Made by a program: the position numbers and the translations under genes. Below the pieces are notes generated by a model. It was not told where the DNA came from. It worked only from the letters and a program-made list of their open reading frames with translations, and ran no database searches. Below, piece after piece: positions 13,080-62,744 of a stretch of DNA of 64,000 nt (position 1 is its first letter; each line of letters starts with the position of its first letter). The stretch is from Dehalococcoidia bacterium (GTDB taxonomy: Bacteria > Chloroflexota > Dehalococcoidia > CAUJGQ01): NCBI GenBank assembly GCA_035310145.1, contig DATGEL010000015.1, forward strand, positions 1 through 64,000. The letters run 5' to 3'.

Positions 13080-13090
13080 GCACAGATGAG

Positions 13091-13179
13091 CTCCCTCGCT
13101 CCCCCGTCCCCACTTTCCCTAACCCAATCTGGAGGAGATCCGCGGCTGTTCAAGCGCGTATGGGAGAGAGGGGCGATCC
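13091..13179. repeat. CTCTCCC palindromic repeat, copy 2
   Basis: An internal GGAGATCCGCGGCTGTTC segment followed by GCGTATGGGAGAG links this copy to the subfamily that clusters around the DUF559 gene at 61.4-62.7 kb. The left arm is degraded (CCCGTCCCCACTTTCCC). Nothing else is visible between 13080 and 13310. Confidence 0.6.
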
Positions 13180-13310
13180 GGTAGCGCTGGCGCGAGGCGG
13201 CGCCGGACGGTACGACGCGCCGCAGGCGCGACCGACGGCGCGAAAGGCGCTGGCGGTGCGCTCCCGCAGCAGCCTGCTAACCCAATCCCGCCCCGGAACT
13301 TCCTGCCAAT

Positions 13311-14969: not shown

Positions 14970-15024
14970 ACGCTCCTCCTTAAAGATCTCCGCTGGTCAT
15001 AGGGAGCGAGCCCCCTGTCACCCC

Positions 15025-15111
15025 CGAATGTGAAGTCCGCTGCGCGGACGATGATTTCACCGCGGGCATCACGCTTGCCTCGAAGAGCTCCGCTGGTCGT
15101 ACGGGGCAAGC
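15025..15111 (-). repeat. Leader direct repeat, promoter-distal copy
   Basis: About 87 bp and roughly 85% identical to 15151-15238. On the minus strand it contains GACCAGCGGAGCTC, a GAGG site, an ATG and a mini-ORF beginning MPAVKSSSAQ, and a GTCCGC-TGC-GCGGAC-type hairpin. The start region of the permease itself (GACCAGCGGAGATC...AAGGAGG...ATG) looks like a third, partial copy. Confidence 0.6.
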
Positions 15112-15150
15112 TTGGGTACTGGATGGGCGCTTACGCGCCCATGGCGCTCA

Positions 15151-15238
15151 CCCCGAATGTGGAGTCCGCTATGCGGACGTAGATTTCAGTGCGGGCATCA
15201 CGCTTACCTCGGGTAACGCCGATGGTCGTAGGGGCAAG
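15151..15238 (-). repeat. Leader direct repeat, promoter-proximal copy
   Basis: Same layout as the copy at 15025: GAGG, ATG, then the 9-codon mini-ORF MPALKSTSA and the GTCCGC/GCGGAC hairpin. Differences between the copies are mostly third-base or conservative in the mini-ORF. It may be part of a leader-peptide or RNA-based switch for the permease. Confidence 0.55.
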
Positions 15239-16186: not shown

Positions 16187-18463
16187 ATGACGACGACGGC
16201 TGGTGAGGCAGATGCCACGGAGGAGTTCTTGACCTCCGAGACCCCGCAGCAGGAGCCGTATGTGCCGGCGATGCACCAGGCCGTGCGCCTGCTCGCCCTG
16301 CACGAGCTGGCGCTGGACGCCGGCCTGGCGCACTCCACGTCAGAGCTGGGCGAACGCATCGTCGAGGCCGCGCTGCGCATCAGCGAGGGCGAAAGCGCCT
16401 CAGTCTATCTCTGGGACTCGGGTGAGGGCCTGCTGCGCGCCGTGGCCCACGGCGGCGAAGCGACGCCGCCGCCGCCGGAACGCGTGCAGCCGGGGCAGGG
16501 CATCACCGGCACGGTCTGGCAGCTCGGCTCGCCGCTGATGGTGGATGTCTTCGACGGTGGCGACGCCAGCGGCCGGACGGGCCTGCGCGCCACGCTCGGC
16601 GCGCCGCTGGAGGCGGGCACGCAGAAGCTCGGCGTCGTGATCGTGCGCCGCTACGCGCCGGGCGCCGCCTTCTCCGCCGAAGACACGCGCCTGCTCAGCC
16701 TGCTGGCGGCGCAGGCCGGCCACCTGCTGGCGCGCCGCTCGGCTGAGGAGGGGGTGCGCGCCAGCGAAGCGCGCTTCCGCGCCCTGGTGGACCGCAGCTC
16801 CGACATCATCCTCGTGCTCGACCCGATCGGCACGATCACCTTCCTCAGCCCCGCCGCCGAGCGCAGCATCGGCTACCCCGCTGAGCGCCTGCTCGGCAGC
16901 AGCATCTTCGAAACGATCGCCCGTGAGGACGCCGAGCGGCTGCACAGCGCCCTCGACGAGGTTTCCGCCACGCCGGGGCACCAGCGCACGGTCGAGTATC
17001 GTCAGCAGTCTGGCGACGGCGCCTGGAGGTATATCGAGGCGATCCTGCGCAACTCGCTGGACGATGCCCACGTGGACGGGATTATCGTCACCGCGCGCGA
17101 CATCACGGCGCGCAAGCAGGCCGAGGAGCTGTTGCAGCACCAGGCGCTGCACGACGCGCTCACCGGCCTGCCCAACCGCATCCTGCTGCAAGACCGCCTG
17201 CAGCACGCCATCCGCCTCGCCTATCGGCAGCGCTCGCCGCTGGCCCTGCTCTTCCTCGACCTGGACCAGTTCAAAGAGGTGAACGACCGCTTCGGCCACC
17301 ATGCCGGCGACCAGCTCTTGCAGCAGGCCGCGCCGCGGCTGCAAAGCGCCCTGCGCGACTCGGACACGCTGGCGCGGCTGGGCGGCGATGAGTTCGCCGT
17401 GGTGCTGCCCGGCGCCCGCAACCCCGAGGCCGAGATCGTGGCGCAAAAGATCGTGCGCGCCTTCGAGCAGCCCTTCGTGATCGACGGCCGCCACCTCACC
17501 ATGCACGTGAGCACCGGCATCGCCCTCTTCCCCGACCACGGCGCCGATGCCGAGACGCTGGTACGCCACGCCGACCTGGCGATGTACGCCGCCAAGCGCA
17601 GCGGCAGCGACACCGCCCGCTTCGGCGAGCCGCAGGCCGCGGAAGACCCGAACCGGCTGGCGCTGCTCTCCGAGCTGCGTCGCGCCCTGGCCCAGCGCTG
17701 GCTGCTGCTGCACTATCAGCCCGTGGTCGAGCTGCCCTCGGGCCGCATCGTGCGCGCCGAGGCGCTGGCGCGCTGGCAGCACCCGGAGCGCGGCCTGCTG
17801 ATGCCCGACCAGTTCATCCCGCTGGCCGAGCAGGCGGGGCTGATCGCGCCGCTGACACGCTGGGTGCTGGCCACGGCATTGCGCCAGTGCCGCGCCTGGC
17901 GGCTGGAGGGACTGGAGCTGGGCGTCACGGTCAACCTCTCGCCCAAGCTCGGCTACAACTCGCTGCTCTCCGACACGCTCACCACGCTGCTCTCACACCT
18001 CGAAGTCGATCCGGGCTGGCTCACCTTCGGCATCACGGACAGCGGCGTGGCCGAAGACCTGCGCCGCGCCGTGGCCATGCTGCAGCAGCTCGACGCGGCG
18101 GGTGTGCGCCTCTCCGTCGAGGGCTTCGGCTCCAGCCAGTTCACACAGCCGCACCTGGCCCAGCTTGGCGTGGACGAGATCAAGATCGACCGGGCGACGG
18201 TCGGCCGCATGGTTGAAGACCCGCCCGCGCACGCCGTCGTGCGCTCCGTGATCGAGCTGGCGCACAACGCCGGCCTGGTGGTGGTGGCCGAGGGCGTGGA
18301 GAACCAGGAGACCTGGGACGCGCTGGTGGCGCTGGGCTGCGACGCGGCGCAGGGCTTCTTCGTCGGCCGGCCGATGCCCGCCGGCATGCTGGCCGCCCGT
18401 ATGCACGAGCAGCTGCGAACTCATAGGGAACAGGGAACAGGGAACAGGGAACAGGGGGCGTAG
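16187..18463 (+). CDS. GAF-PAS-GGDEF-EAL signalling protein
   Basis: 758-residue soluble c-di-GMP enzyme. GAF lies at about 30-185 and PAS at about 195-315 (FRALVDRSSDIILVLD). The GGDEF domain near 330-490 has intact RLGGDEF (about 397) and an upstream RDSD that fits the inhibitory RxxD site. The EAL domain near 505-745 keeps EALARW, KIDR, VAEGVEN and QGFFVGRP but has EGFG where active enzymes have DDFG, and ITDSG in place of ELTES. So cyclase activity is likely and phosphodiesterase activity doubtful. The last dozen residues (REQGTGNREQGA) are encoded by a heptad repeat and are probably not functional. Confidence 0.88.
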   Translation: MTTTAGEADATEEFLTSETPQQEPYVPAMHQAVRLLALHELALDAGLAHSTSELGERIVEAALRISEGESASVYLWDSGEGLLRAVAHGGEATPPPPERVQPGQGITGTVWQLGSPLMVDVFDGGDASGRTGLRATLGAPLEAGTQKLGVVIVRRYAPGAAFSAEDTRLLSLLAAQAGHLLARRSAEEGVRASEARFRALVDRSSDIILVLDPIGTITFLSPAAERSIGYPAERLLGSSIFETIAREDAERLHSALDEVSATPGHQRTVEYRQQSGDGAWRYIEAILRNSLDDAHVDGIIVTARDITARKQAEELLQHQALHDALTGLPNRILLQDRLQHAIRLAYRQRSPLALLFLDLDQFKEVNDRFGHHAGDQLLQQAAPRLQSALRDSDTLARLGGDEFAVVLPGARNPEAEIVAQKIVRAFEQPFVIDGRHLTMHVSTGIALFPDHGADAETLVRHADLAMYAAKRSGSDTARFGEPQAAEDPNRLALLSELRRALAQRWLLLHYQPVVELPSGRIVRAEALARWQHPERGLLMPDQFIPLAEQAGLIAPLTRWVLATALRQCRAWRLEGLELGVTVNLSPKLGYNSLLSDTLTTLLSHLEVDPGWLTFGITDSGVAEDLRRAVAMLQQLDAAGVRLSVEGFGSSQFTQPHLAQLGVDEIKIDRATVGRMVEDPPAHAVVRSVIELAHNAGLVVVAEGVENQETWDALVALGCDAAQGFFVGRPMPAGMLAARMHEQLRTHREQGTGNREQGA

Positions 18464-18590
18464 GGACGCCGGGACGAGGAAATAGAGCACAGAAAATAGG
18501 AACGAGGGACGAGGCCACCGCACCCCTATTTCCTATTTCCTCGTTCCTATTTCCTCGTTCCTGATTCCTCGTCCCTCGTCCCTATTCCCT
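18423..18590. repeat. Heptad/hexad low-complexity repeat between convergent genes
   Basis: The left half is purine-rich (tandem GGGAACA units, then AGGAACGAGGGACGAGG). The right half is pyrimidine-rich (CCTATTTCCTCGTTCC units), so the whole is a loose inverted repeat. Both convergent genes read into it, which adds repetitive C-terminal tails to each protein. Confidence 0.7.
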
Positions 18591-23750: not shown

Positions 23751-23774
23751 GCGGCAGCCTCCGGCGGTGCGTAG

Positions 23775-23865
23775 GTAACAGGTAACAGGTGACAGGTGAC
23801 AGGTGACAGGGTACAGGTGACAGGAAACAGGGAACAGGGCGTAGGGCGTAGAGCGTAGAGCGTAG
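23775..23865. repeat. Tandem 7-bp repeat, 13 units
   Basis: Thirteen consecutive heptads drift from GTAACAG through GTGACAG and GGAACAG to AGCGTAG. They occupy the short region between divergent genes (the B3/B4 protein and tag), about 50 bp before tag. They are similar to the short tandem heptads known from cyanobacteria. Confidence 0.85.
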
Positions 23866-29368: not shown

Positions 29369-29520
29369 GGTTGTGCGCCTCCCGCCGGACGGGGCGCCGG
29401 AGCGCCCCGAGGTGTTACCACATTACAGCGGAGACGCACGTATGTTCTGAATTCTTACGTCGAGTAGAGGAAGGCGCCTGGGACGCCTGCGGGCGCGCGG
29501 GCGAGGCGCCCCGCCGCGGT

Positions 29521-29604
29521 TAACAGATGGTTTCAAAACCGGCGGGCACGTGCGATCGCATCTCTGCAAGCGGGAACCCGAGCCGGTTTTGAAACCATGT
29601 CTAA
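29521..29604. repeat. 84-bp palindromic element, intergenic copy
   Basis: Ends TAACAGATGGTTTCAAAACC and GGTTTTGAAACCATGTCTAA are long inverted repeats. It is about 88% identical to, and the same length as, the copy inside a universal stress protein gene at 47628-47711. The frame that is translated there is also open here. The rest of 29369-29684 shows no gene. Confidence 0.85.
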
Positions 29605-29684
29605 GGGAACCGCAGGCGCAGCACACCGACCGCGCCCACGCGGCACAACGATTGACATGGGAGTGGTTCGCGCTGGTGGCTCGC

Positions 29685-35079: not shown

Positions 35080-35160
35080 AGGATAGAGGAACCAGAAAAT
35101 AGCAACGAAGAAGACGCACTATTTCCTATTTTCTACGTCCTATTTCCTCGTTCCTCGCCC
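35080..35160. repeat. Purine/pyrimidine low-complexity inverted repeat
   Basis: A purine-rich half (GGAAATAGGATAGAGGAACC and similar) is followed by a pyrimidine-rich half (TATTTCCTATTTTCTACGTCC...). This is the same architecture as at 18423-18590. It fills the gap between the lactonase stop and the SDR leader. Confidence 0.6.
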
Positions 35161-35162
35161 GC

Positions 35163-36110
35163 CTAATACGCCCCCTGCTGCTCGAAGATGCGGCGCGGAT
35201 TGTCGACCAGCATCTGCGAGATCTGCGCCTCGCTCACGCCCTGCGCCCGCAGCGCCGGCAGCACATCGTCAGGGATGTGGTTATAGTGCCAGTTCGGCCA
35301 CTGCCTGCGCACCGTCTCGGCGTCGCGCGCGTCGGAGAAGCAGCTCGCGTCATGCGAGAGCACCATCTTGCCGGCGTAGCCCTCTTTGCAGAGCGCCGCG
35401 ATGGTGGCCACGCGCCGGTCGGTCGGCAGCAGGCGGTCGATGCCGAAGCGGTCCATGCCGATGGAACTGCCGCGGTCCATCAGCCGCTTGAGATAGCCGA
35501 GGTCCTCCGAGTCGCCGCTGTGGCCGATGATCACGCGCGAGAGATCGACGCCTTCGGAGGCGAAGATGTCCTGCTGCACGGTGCCCATCTCGCCGGCGGC
35601 GTAGGTGTGCGTGGAGATCGGCACGCCGGTGCGGCGGTGGGCACGGGCCGAGGCGCGCAGGATCTTCTCGATCGGCGGCGTGGCGCCCTCGGTGTCGGTC
35701 GCGCACTTGATGATGCCGCAGCGGATGTTCGTGCCCGCCGTGCCGCGCTCGATATCCTGCACGAACAGGTCCGCGATCGCGTCAACCTCGCGGCTGTGAA
35801 AGTAGCGCTGCGGCTGCCACCAGATCCCCGTGGCCACGATCACGTTCACGCCGGCGCCGGCGGCGATCTCGCGCACGAAGGCCACGTCGCGGCCCAGGTC
35901 CACGGTGGTCAGGTCCACCAGCGTGTCGATGCCGCGGCGCTGCACGTCCTGCAGCTTCACGATCGCCTGCTGCTTCACCGTCTCACGGTCCCAGAGACCG
36001 GGCCAGTTCTCGATGACGCCCGGCGAGAGGGTGATGATGTGCTCGTGCATCAGCACGCGGCCGAGCTTGCCGGTGTCGATCGGGCCGGTCACCGCCTGGA
36101 TCGTCGCCAT
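35163..36110 (-). CDS. Phosphotriesterase-like lactonase (amidohydrolase family)
   Basis: 315 residues. The metal site is recognisable: HxH in RVLMHEHIITL, the Lys that is carboxylated in CGIIKCATD, His in ISTHTYAAGEMG and VIIGHSGDSEDL, and Asp in VLSHDASCF. These are shared by phosphotriesterases and quorum-quenching lactonases. Length is normal and all metal ligands are present, so an active hydrolase of lactones or phosphotriesters is likely. ATG 36110 has GGAGGAGACGGC upstream. It is divergent from a Fur-family gene. Confidence 0.88.
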   Translation of the reverse strand: MATIQAVTGPIDTGKLGRVLMHEHIITLSPGVIENWPGLWDRETVKQQAIVKLQDVQRRGIDTLVDLTTVDLGRDVAFVREIAAGAGVNVIVATGIWWQPQRYFHSREVDAIADLFVQDIERGTAGTNIRCGIIKCATDTEGATPPIEKILRASARAHRRTGVPISTHTYAAGEMGTVQQDIFASEGVDLSRVIIGHSGDSEDLGYLKRLMDRGSSIGMDRFGIDRLLPTDRRVATIAALCKEGYAGKMVLSHDASCFSDARDAETVRRQWPNWHYNHIPDDVLPALRAQGVSEAQISQMLVDNPRRIFEQQGAY

Positions 36111-47092: not shown

Positions 47093-48133
47093 TCAGGACG
47101 TCGCGCGGGCGGAATGGAGCGCGCGTCCATTCGTGTCGGACGAGTCGGTAGCCGGTGGCGTGACCGCCCCTTGCGGCACGATCAGGGTGGGCAGCCCGGC
47201 GGCGATCAGGTCAAAGGCGACGCTGCCCCGCAGCGTTCGGCTCAGCCCGGTTCGGCCGTGCGAGGCGATCACAGCCAGGTCAACGCCGGCGGCGCGAGCC
47301 AGCGCGATCAGCTCGGCGCCCGCCGCACCGTGCAGGACGAGGGACTCGACCGGCAGATTCGGCGGCAGCCCTGTGGCTTTGCCGCTGAGGTAGGTTTCGG
47401 CGCGCGCGGTCTGGCGGCGCTCGGTGGCCCCGGCGTCGGGCACGTGGCCATGGCCCGGCGTCCACGAGGCGTACTCCTGCACAACGCGGGCGAGCAGCAG
47501 GCGGGCGCCGAGCGCGCGGGCGAGCTCGGTCGCCGGCGCCAGCGCGGCTTCGGCCAGCGCGGTGCCGTCCAGGGGCACCAGGATGCGTTGGATGGAAGCC
47601 GGAGCCTGCCGCTCCCCACCGTCGTACTTAGACATGGTTTCAAAACCGGCTCGAGTTCCCGCTTGTAGGTGTGCGATCGCACCTGAACGCCGGTTTTGAA
47701 ACCATCTGTTAGCCAGCAGGACGGGGCGGTTGCCGCGGCTGGCCACATCATCCGCGACACTGCCGAGCGCCCAGCGGGCCAATTCGCCGCGGCCGTGCGT
47801 CGCCATCGCGATCAGCGACGCATTCAGCGCCGTGGCCGCCCCCTGGATCTCGCCGGCCGGATCGCCCCACATCAGCGCGGTGGCGACTTGCAGCCCGTCC
47901 TCGCGCAGGCGCCGTTCGCTGCGGATCAGGTACTGCTCCAGCGCCTGGCGCCGCTGCTGCGCGGCCGCCTCGCGATCGCCGTCGCTCGTGGGCGCAAGCC
48001 GCGGATCGGCCTCGACGACGGCGAGCAGCACCAGCTTCTGGCCCGTGCCGCGCGCGATCGCCATTGCCAGGGGCAGCACCGCTTCGGCCACGCCGCTGCC
48101 ATCGAGACACACCAGGATCCGCTCCGCAACCAT
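47093..48133 (-). CDS. Tandem universal stress protein carrying an in-frame palindromic element
   Basis: 346 residues from ATG 48133. Two Usp domains: residues about 1-150 (RILVCLDGSGVAEAVLPLAMAIA, then MATHGRGELARWALGSVADDVASRG) and about 190-340 (RILVPLDGTALAEAALAPATELA, then ASHGRTGLSRTLRGSVAFDLIAAG). Both have the ATP-binding Gx2Gx9 pattern. Between them, 28 residues (NRWFQNRRSGAIAHLQAG...) are encoded by an 84-bp palindromic element that keeps the frame. The insert falls in the interdomain linker, so the protein may still fold. It is first in an operon with two kinases. Confidence 0.88.
   Translation of the reverse strand: MVAERILVCLDGSGVAEAVLPLAMAIARGTGQKLVLLAVVEADPRLAPTSDGDREAAAQQRRQALEQYLIRSERRLREDGLQVATALMWGDPAGEIQGAATALNASLIAMATHGRGELARWALGSVADDVASRGNRPVLLANRWFQNRRSGAIAHLQAGTRAGFETMSKYDGGERQAPASIQRILVPLDGTALAEAALAPATELARALGARLLLARVVQEYASWTPGHGHVPDAGATERRQTARAETYLSGKATGLPPNLPVESLVLHGAAGAELIALARAAGVDLAVIASHGRTGLSRTLRGSVAFDLIAAGLPTLIVPQGAVTPPATDSSDTNGRALHSARATS
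47628..47711. repeat. 84-bp palindromic element, copy inside a USP gene
   Basis: Same length and about 88% identical to 29521-29604, in the opposite orientation. The ends are long inverted repeats (GGTTTCAAAACCGGC / GCCGGTTTTGAAACC), flanked on both sides by TTA/TAA, which might be a 3-bp target duplication. It adds exactly 28 codons without a stop. Confidence 0.88.
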
Positions 48134-48205
48134 CTCCACCGCTCCTGCGCCGGCCCGACCCCGCGTGCGGGCGCCGGGCGCCAAAAGCTCCGCGCGTCGC
48201 GGGCC

Positions 48206-48299: not shown

Positions 48300-49247
48300 C
48301 TACGCCGGCCGCTCCGCGCCGGCTGTCTCGAAGGAGATGGCAGCGCCGGGTTGCAGATCGGGCCGCAACAGCAGCGTGGGCACGCCGGAGCGCACGATCC
48401 GATCGGCCGTGCTGCCCAGCACCAGCCGCTTGACGCCACCGCGGCTGTGCGTGGTCATCACCACCAGGTCCGCCGGCTCGGTCTTGAAGTAGTCCAGCAG
48501 GGCCAGCGGGGCCGCACCCCGCAGCAGCACCGTCTCGACCTCGGGTATGGACTGCAGACGCGTGCGCACCTCTTGCAGATACGCCTGGTCGGCCTGATCG
48601 ATCTCTGCCTGGATCTCGGCCAGGTCCGGGACATAGGCATAGGGTTCCGTCGCCGTCAGCACGAACGGCTGCGCCCGGATCAGGAGCAGCGCGGCGCCCG
48701 TCGCCTGGGCGAGGCGCGCGGCAACCGGCAGCGCCGCCTCGGCGAGCTCGGATCCGTCCAGTGGCACTGCGATCCGCCGCAGCGGCGCCGCGGCCGTACG
48801 ATCGGCGGACGGCTCCGGCGTCAGCAGCAGCACGGGGCGCGGTGCCAGGCGCATCAGCTTATCCGCCACGCTGCCCAGGTACCAGCGTTGCAGGCCGCCG
48901 CGGCCGTGGGTGGCGATCACGACCAGCGCCACGTCGGCATCCTCGGCGGCGGCAAGCAGTTGCTCGATCGGCTCGCCCTGCGCCAGCAGTACGCCGGCCG
49001 GCTGGCCCGACGTTTCCAGCCTGGCGGCCTGCTGGTGCAGATAGTGCTTGGCCTTTTCCTGTTCGGCCTCCAGCAGCCGATCGTGCTCCGCCGTCGCGCG
49101 GGCGTGTGGCCAGGCGGGGCCGGTGTCGACGACGCTGACAAGGCGGATGCCGAAGCCCAGCGCCCTTGCGACGGCGCGGGCGAGCGGCAAGGCGCCCTCC
49201 GCCAGTTCGGAGCCATCCAGCGGCAGCAAAACGACGTGATCGGTCAT
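48300..49247 (-). CDS. Tandem-domain universal stress protein
   Basis: 315 residues, two Usp domains: HVVLLPLDGSELAEGALPLARAV with VIATHGRGGLQRWYLGSVADKLMR, and RIAVPLDGSELAEAALPVAARLA with MTTHSRGGVKRLVLGSTADRIVR. Both carry intact ATP-binding loops. ATG 49247 has GAGGAAGAACGC upstream. It follows the next USP gene by 66 bp on the same strand. The roles of such proteins in dormancy and redox stress are known only in general terms. Confidence 0.92.
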   Translation of the reverse strand: MTDHVVLLPLDGSELAEGALPLARAVARALGFGIRLVSVVDTGPAWPHARATAEHDRLLEAEQEKAKHYLHQQAARLETSGQPAGVLLAQGEPIEQLLAAAEDADVALVVIATHGRGGLQRWYLGSVADKLMRLAPRPVLLLTPEPSADRTAAAPLRRIAVPLDGSELAEAALPVAARLAQATGAALLLIRAQPFVLTATEPYAYVPDLAEIQAEIDQADQAYLQEVRTRLQSIPEVETVLLRGAAPLALLDYFKTEPADLVVMTTHSRGGVKRLVLGSTADRIVRSGVPTLLLRPDLQPGAAISFETAGAERPA

Positions 49248-49313
49248 GCGTTCTTCCTCGTCCCTGAATCGAAAGCATGGAGTCATGCTCAGGGCATTGC
49301 GCCGCTCGGCCCG

Positions 49314-61436: not shown

Positions 61437-61527
61437 GGCCCTCACAACCCCCGACCCCTTCTCTCCCATACACAGCGGCTTGGAGATCCGCGGCTGTTCA
61501 CGAGCGTATGGGAGAGAAGGGGCGAGC
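61437..61527. repeat. CTCTCCC palindromic repeat, copy 9 (DUF559 subfamily)
   Basis: CCCCTTCTCTCCCATAC and GTATGGGAGAGAAGGGG arms around a GGAGATCCGCGGCTGTTC core, close to the two 93-bp copies that flank the DUF559 gene and to copy 2 at 13.1 kb. Confidence 0.8.
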
Positions 61528-61717
61528 CATGGGAGGTGGGCGAGGCGGCGCGGCGCTAACCGAAGGAAAGCGCCGCGGCGACGAGCGCACGCCCATGGCC
61601 GCTCCGCGGGCATCCTCAACCACCGCGTTGTTCGCGCCAACGGCGCGACAATCGGGGCGCGAGATTCCCTGCCGCGCCGCCCGAGAACCGGCGGTCACGA
61701 TGCCAGGGTAAATCTCG

Positions 61718-61866: not shown

Positions 61867-61890
61867 CCGAAACCATCTGCACCTGCACCG

Positions 61891-61983
61891 CACGATCGCC
61901 CCTTCTCTCCCATACGCTCTTGATCCGTAGCGGATCTCCAGCAGATTGTGTATGGGAGAGAAGGGGAAGGGGGTTATGAGGGC
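61891..61983 (-). repeat. 93-bp repeat, left inverted copy flanking DUF559
   Basis: Identical, in reverse complement, to 62430-62522 over all 93 bp. It contains CCCCTTCTCTCCCATAC / GTATGGGAGAGAAGGGG arms. Its right end (AAGGGGAAGGGGGTTATGAG) supplies the ribosome-binding site and ATG of the DUF559 gene. Confidence 0.95.
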
Positions 61984-62365: not shown

Positions 62366-62429
62366 AGGCGCGGCGGACGGTGCGGGCATGCCGGGCGATT
62401 CGACGCGCTGACGACGCTCGCCCGCGGGG

Positions 62430-62522
62430 GCCCTCATAACCCCCTTCCCCTTCTCTCCCATACACAATCTGCTGGAGATCCGCTACGGATCAAGAGCGTA
62501 TGGGAGAGAAGGGGCGATCGTG
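62430..62522 (+). repeat. 93-bp repeat, right inverted copy flanking DUF559
   Basis: A perfect inverted copy of 61891-61983, starting 64 bp after the DUF559 stop. The outward end is GGGGCGATCGTG; similarity fades after one mismatch beyond it. Confidence 0.95.
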
Positions 62523-62645
62523 GGGTGCTGGCTCGGGCAGTATTGGGCTCCCAGACTCCGGCAGCTCGTGAGCGGCCTGTCGCGGCCGCAGGCGCGATAA
62601 ACAGCGCTCCGGGCAACCGCATGCCGCCCTGGATCGCTTCACGCC

Positions 62646-62738
62646 GGATCGCCCCTTCTCTCCCATACACACGAGGCCTTGAGACCGCGAGGGGGTTGAG
62701 GGCGGTATGGGAGAGAAGGGGAAGGGGGTTATGAGGGC
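62646..62738 (-). repeat. CTCTCCC palindromic repeat, copy 12 (DUF559 subfamily)
   Basis: The same arms as the 93-bp copies and the same AGGGGGTTATGAGGGC end, but the core between the arms differs (ACGAGGCCTTGAGACCGCG). Its ATG-bearing end faces the response regulator gene and opens no real gene. Confidence 0.85.
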
Positions 62739-62744
62739 CGCAGG

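Follow-up and report, generated by a model that had tools for sequence, protein, structure and literature searches.

The protein-embedded palindromic elements of Rickettsia (RPEs) are about 150 bp long, and nearly half of them are inserted in open reading frames (ORFs) (PMC10969869). Among transposable elements, members of the IS5/PIF-Harbinger (PHIS) superfamily, to which bacterial IS5 is related, are known to insert at C|TNA|G (PMC4482050). Here we describe a short palindromic element with two copies in the window, the whole 64,000-nt stretch of DNA that was analyzed. It very probably belongs to a 78-bp MITE family with a C|TWA|G target and a TWA duplication, mobilized in trans by an IS5/PIF-Harbinger-type DDE transposase, with in-gene copies carried as passengers and with inversion of the core.

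The initial annotation described two copies of a palindromic element, at 29521 and 47628, each of 84 bp (28 codons) with TTA or TAA at its flanks. Both are present in the sequence, but the 84-bp stretches (47628-47711 and 29521-29604) each consist of a 78-bp element plus a 3-bp duplication on both sides, with boundaries taken from the alignment of the genome copies. Both duplications had been counted; the net gain per insertion is 81 bp, or 27 codons. The element consists of 20-bp imperfect terminal inverted repeats around a 38-bp core, with no gene inside. The window copies lie in opposite orientations on the plus strand, appear as an inverted pair (29518-29605 and 47627-47714; 88 nt, 90% complementary), and, as the annotation stated, share an open frame, which in the intergenic copy is on the plus strand. 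The features are as follows.

47093-48184, minus strand: host gene, a two-domain universal stress protein (USP), open through the element (ORF; Pfam Usp in two stretches)
47628-47630, unstranded: target-site duplication TTA, left of the USP copy, with C before it (sequence; flanking-triplet test)
47631-47708, minus strand: 78-bp element within the two-domain USP gene; its minus-strand reading with one duplication is NRWFQNRRSGAIAHLQAGTRAGFETMS (sequence, genome BLAST, paralogue without insert)
47631-47650, unstranded: terminal inverted repeat, GAC end, GACATGGTTTCAAAACCGGC (inverted-repeat comparison, copy alignment)
47651-47688, unstranded: 38-bp core, family A (copy alignment; identical core in 8 copies)
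47689-47708, unstranded: terminal inverted repeat, CAG end, reverse complement CAGATGGTTTCAAAACCGGC (inverted-repeat comparison, copy alignment)
47709-47711, unstranded: target-site duplication TTA, right of the USP copy, then G (sequence, copy alignment)
48300-49286, minus strand: adjacent USP paralogue without the insert (alignment, 35% identity over the full length)
29521-29523, unstranded: target-site duplication TAA, left of the intergenic copy (sequence, copy alignment)
29524-29601, plus strand: 78-bp element, intergenic copy (sequence, genome BLAST, copy alignment)
29544-29581, plus strand: 38-bp core, family A, intergenic copy (copy alignment)
29602-29604, unstranded: target-site duplication TAA, right of the intergenic copy (sequence, copy alignment)

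The annotation had also proposed that a mobile palindromic repeat lies in frame in the linker of the USP gene, and the gene bears this out. The host frame is open and encodes 363 aa, the translated insert included; in the full-length alignment with the adjacent paralogue, the insert falls exactly opposite a gap of 26 residues. No homologue in this comparison had the same linker; one that did would have spoken against a repeat.

Of the five confirmed in-gene copies, four leave the host frame open, namely, those in the USP gene and in further genes for an SDR, a Uma2 protein, and an ISL3 transposase. In the SDR gene (L008 and L224; G000:C50:20997-21905), the 27-residue insert directly follows the lysine of the catalytic YxxxK motif, and the remainder of the gene is intact. 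One clean homologue of the same class (L225; the L231 row was left out as a wrong ORF) has YSSSKHAALAYSESL where this genome has YTTTK plus 27 residues. The YxxxK helix is likewise uninterrupted in PDB 5ig2, compared to which the SDR here has 27 extra residues. When the 81 bp are taken out, the SDR profile match is a single stretch (2-192), the Uma2 match extends from 54-143 to 54-171, and a match to the ISL3 zinc ribbon emerges at 7e-8. The USP paralogue, the SDR homologue with PDB 5ig2, and the restored Uma2, SDR, and ISL3 matches are empty sites at the protein level. The fifth copy (L029; G000:C38:18150-18235) truncates a gene of the CcbP calcium-binding type, in which two stops are met and whose PF11535 match is obtained without the insert. 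Most other apparent in-frame ORFs were dismissed because translation probably starts downstream of the element. The copy in the ISL3 transposase (L011; G000:C125:3271-3356) sits within the zinc ribbon and is thus a mobile element inside a mobile element.

When the window copy was used as a BLAST query against its own genome (5.32 Mb, 148 contigs), about 40 family A copies were found, with a best E value of 5e-39. Searches based on the ends raised the total to about 56 dispersed copies, with 0 to 1 in reversed-pattern controls, and a gapped two-end pattern gave 29 palindromic sites versus 0 in its reversed control. Because of these numbers, the match between 29521 and 47628 is not due to chance. 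In a class-wide DNA search, no copy turned up in the only genome sampled from the same taxonomic family or in some 390 further genomes; the single match outside the element's own genome (G080) covered 18 bases and was taken as chance. Plasmid and phage searches with the element gave no match. The 17-base end had single matches with no partner repeat nearby, both among the contig matches listed and in six viral stretches.

The ends of the element read (CAG or GAC)ATGGTTTCAAAACCGGC, also written (CAG|GAC)ATGGTTTCAAAACC. One CAG end is paired with one GAC end in 44 of 53 copies, and in none of the 53 are the two alike. Paired ends were about 54 bp apart throughout, even though the search imposed no spacing, and nearly every copy has a core of 38 bp. 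The cores themselves differ: the families with multiple copies are A (37 copies), B (5 copies, including L059, which ungapped comparison overlooked), and D (4 copies, with a 39-bp core), and at least four more copies with good ends (L060, L061, L079, and L082) have unrelated 38-bp cores. Several unrelated cores under the same ends are atypical and count against a single-deletion MITE. In families A and B, the core is found in either orientation relative to the CAG and GAC ends; one identical core occurs in eight copies, five in one orientation and three in the opposite one.

Template switching between the arms of an inverted repeat inverts spacers and homogenizes arms (PMC8604942). The core has probably been inverted in place by DNA polymerase switching templates between the 17-bp identical arms, although such switching is best documented for short spacers (inversions of 2 to 5 bp [PMC8604942] versus 38 bp here). 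The same process would also explain identical changes on both arms, of which there were 13 versus 59 one-sided changes; the 13 are not independent because some are common to subfamilies. It is also conceivable, if rather unlikely, that transposition as such sets the length of the element and reorients or replaces the core, so that the element consists of obligatorily asymmetric conserved ends around an exchangeable 38-bp cargo. If that were true, insertions would always be 81 bp and could act as ready-made 27-residue protein linkers.

The triplets flanking the element are identical in 29 of 53 copies, and all of these are TAA or TTA; shuffling the partners for 10,000 rounds gave a mean of 14.2 and a maximum of 26. 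Many of the nonidentical triplets in the other 24 copies resemble single-base decay. C precedes the left triplet in 42 of the 53 copies and G follows the right one in 36, and thus the target is C|TWA|G. Both this target and the 3-bp TWA duplication are those of the IS5/PIF-Harbinger group. The inverted-repeat ends on a short element without genes, the target-site duplication, the dispersed copies, and the empty sites are those of a MITE. The ends, fixed length, duplications, copy number, and protein-level empty sites support the MITE reading directly.

Like REP/BIME sequences mobilized with a RAYT, the element is a small palindrome with many copies. It could accordingly be a palindrome of that kind, whose hairpin is the substrate of a single-strand (Y1, RAYT) transposase: its hairpin is strong on either strand (z about -6 to -7.6) and has a fixed loop length, the core is reversible, and the 13 symmetric arm changes would fit as well. 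To our knowledge, however, target duplications are not a feature of REP/BIME palindromes. The direct TWA duplications and the palindromic C|TWA|G target are instead signs of double-strand DDE integration. REPs also carry tetranucleotide tags, and the element has no GTAG or CGTC tag, unlike the two large REP superfamilies (PMC3733652). We therefore give a single-strand mover little credence.

A simple gene caller based on codon usage, with the window as its training set, classified 57 copies: 36 were intergenic, 11 lay exactly on a stop codon, and 10 were coding. L060 to L063 are uncertain among the ten, and L082 fits better as a twelfth copy on a stop codon. Empty CTWAG sites, a small sample (30 sites in 275 kb) drawn partly from the surroundings of copies, fell into the same classes in similar proportions (18, 6, and 6, respectively), so target availability explains the placement. 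Among the frames that are open at the empty site, 51% remain open with the element in them (family A copies), which makes four open copies out of five unremarkable.

The initial annotation likened the element to those of Rickettsia, whose tolerance inside genes it attributed to frame keeping; the data do not support this explanation for the copies here. If it were a Rickettsia-type element, its length and open frames would have been selected for life inside proteins. The net insertion of 81 bp (78 + 3), which leaves the reading frame intact whenever a standard copy enters a gene, the four open in-gene copies, and the use of two frames (WFQNR... and DGFKTG...) would all suit such selection. However, only 5 of about 56 copies are confirmed in genes and one of these is stopped, the coding share (10 of 57) equals that of the CTWAG sites (6 of 30) and is not the large ORF share of RPEs, the sequence by itself leaves about half of the frames open, and the 39-bp core of family D makes an 82-bp, frame-breaking insertion. 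Because placement follows that of the empty sites and half of the frames are open anyway, no in-frame adaptation is needed, and we regard selection of this kind as improbable. That in-gene copies can be translated is apparently due to luck of length, not design.

The many copies that are intergenic or on stop codons, together with the stable hairpin, would also be expected of a functional structural RNA or terminator hairpin dispersed as a regulatory module close to the ends of genes. An Rfam search of the window found only a tRNA and no match at the element, no T-run follows the stem, the cores differ, and the placement matches target-site availability; we consider this explanation extremely unlikely.

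Under the MITE reading, a DDE transposase of the IS5/PIF-Harbinger superfamily would have moved the element in trans, recognizing the 20-bp ends and requiring one CAG and one GAC end; no such transposase was found in the assembly, and it may be lost. Copies on stop codons would be harmless because the duplication restores TAA. Some in-gene copies, such as that in the USP linker, would persist as translated passengers, with the frame kept and about half of the target frames free of stops. An autonomous partner with the element's ends was not found among the transposase loci searched (IS5 and IS630 types) in the 148-contig draft: loci of IS630 (PF13358) and IS5 (PF13340, PF01609, and PF13586) are present, and none has these ends. 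Two IS5-type ends of the same genome, found via their transposase, abut CTAA. A pattern search gave further ends beside CTAA or GTTA, again unlike those of the element; these count for less because the search pattern contained the target. Since none of the ends found matches the element's, the mobilizing partner is one that we infer.

Other repeats were noted. GCGCCTATCCCGTAAG adjoins one copy (L019 and L237; G000:C7:6905-6927), with the TTA in common, and is similar to the IS5-type end GAGCCTATCCCGATAG; it may mark an IS that once inserted at this target, or the likeness may be due to chance. Another dispersed repeat (GTATGGGAGAGAAGGGGAAGGGGGTTATGAGGGC) occurs in the window at 61437-61539, 61882-61983, 62429-62531, 62705-62741, and 13089-13191, with arms up to 98% complementary, and an IS5 element in L089 has a sequence like it at its flank. 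Short tandem heptamer arrays of the ACAGGGA and CTCGTTCCTATTTC types lie between genes (window 18410-18590, 23758-23853, and 35119-35169), and window 15022-15234 has two direct 84-nt repeats, 82% identical and 129 bp apart.

This family is a clean case of a bacterial MITE with a net size that is a multiple of three and a duplication that restores stop codons, and consequently it can settle with little damage in a gene-dense genome of 70% G+C. A USP linker and the catalytic helix of an SDR each carry a natural 27-residue insertion, and the identical cores in both orientations offer a means of measuring spacer inversion in short palindromes. Before selection is claimed for protein-embedded repeats elsewhere, the null model based on target-site distribution should be applied.

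Among known systems, RPEs are similar in being palindromic and, in some unrelated genes, in frame and translated. Going by their description (PMC10969869), they are set apart by their length, compared to 78 bp here, and by their share in ORFs, compared to 5 of about 56 copies confirmed here, as target sites predict. The IS5-family elements of the same genome, with ends GAGCCTAACCCGTTAG (C39) and GAACCTATCCCACTAG (C79), have the same target, but their terminal repeats are unlike the element's GACATGGTTTCAAAACC. With the PHIS MITEs (e.g., Tourist-like elements and NuwaII, whose target is C|TNA|G), the element shares a TWA duplication in C|TWA|G, terminal inverted repeats, a lack of coding capacity, and dozens of copies. 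It differs from them in being only 78 bp long, in having no partner transposase found, and in its interchangeable and invertible cores of a fixed 38 bp. It is a new MITE family that is ordinary in kind but unusual in its fixed length, its asymmetric ends, and its reversible and replaceable cores.
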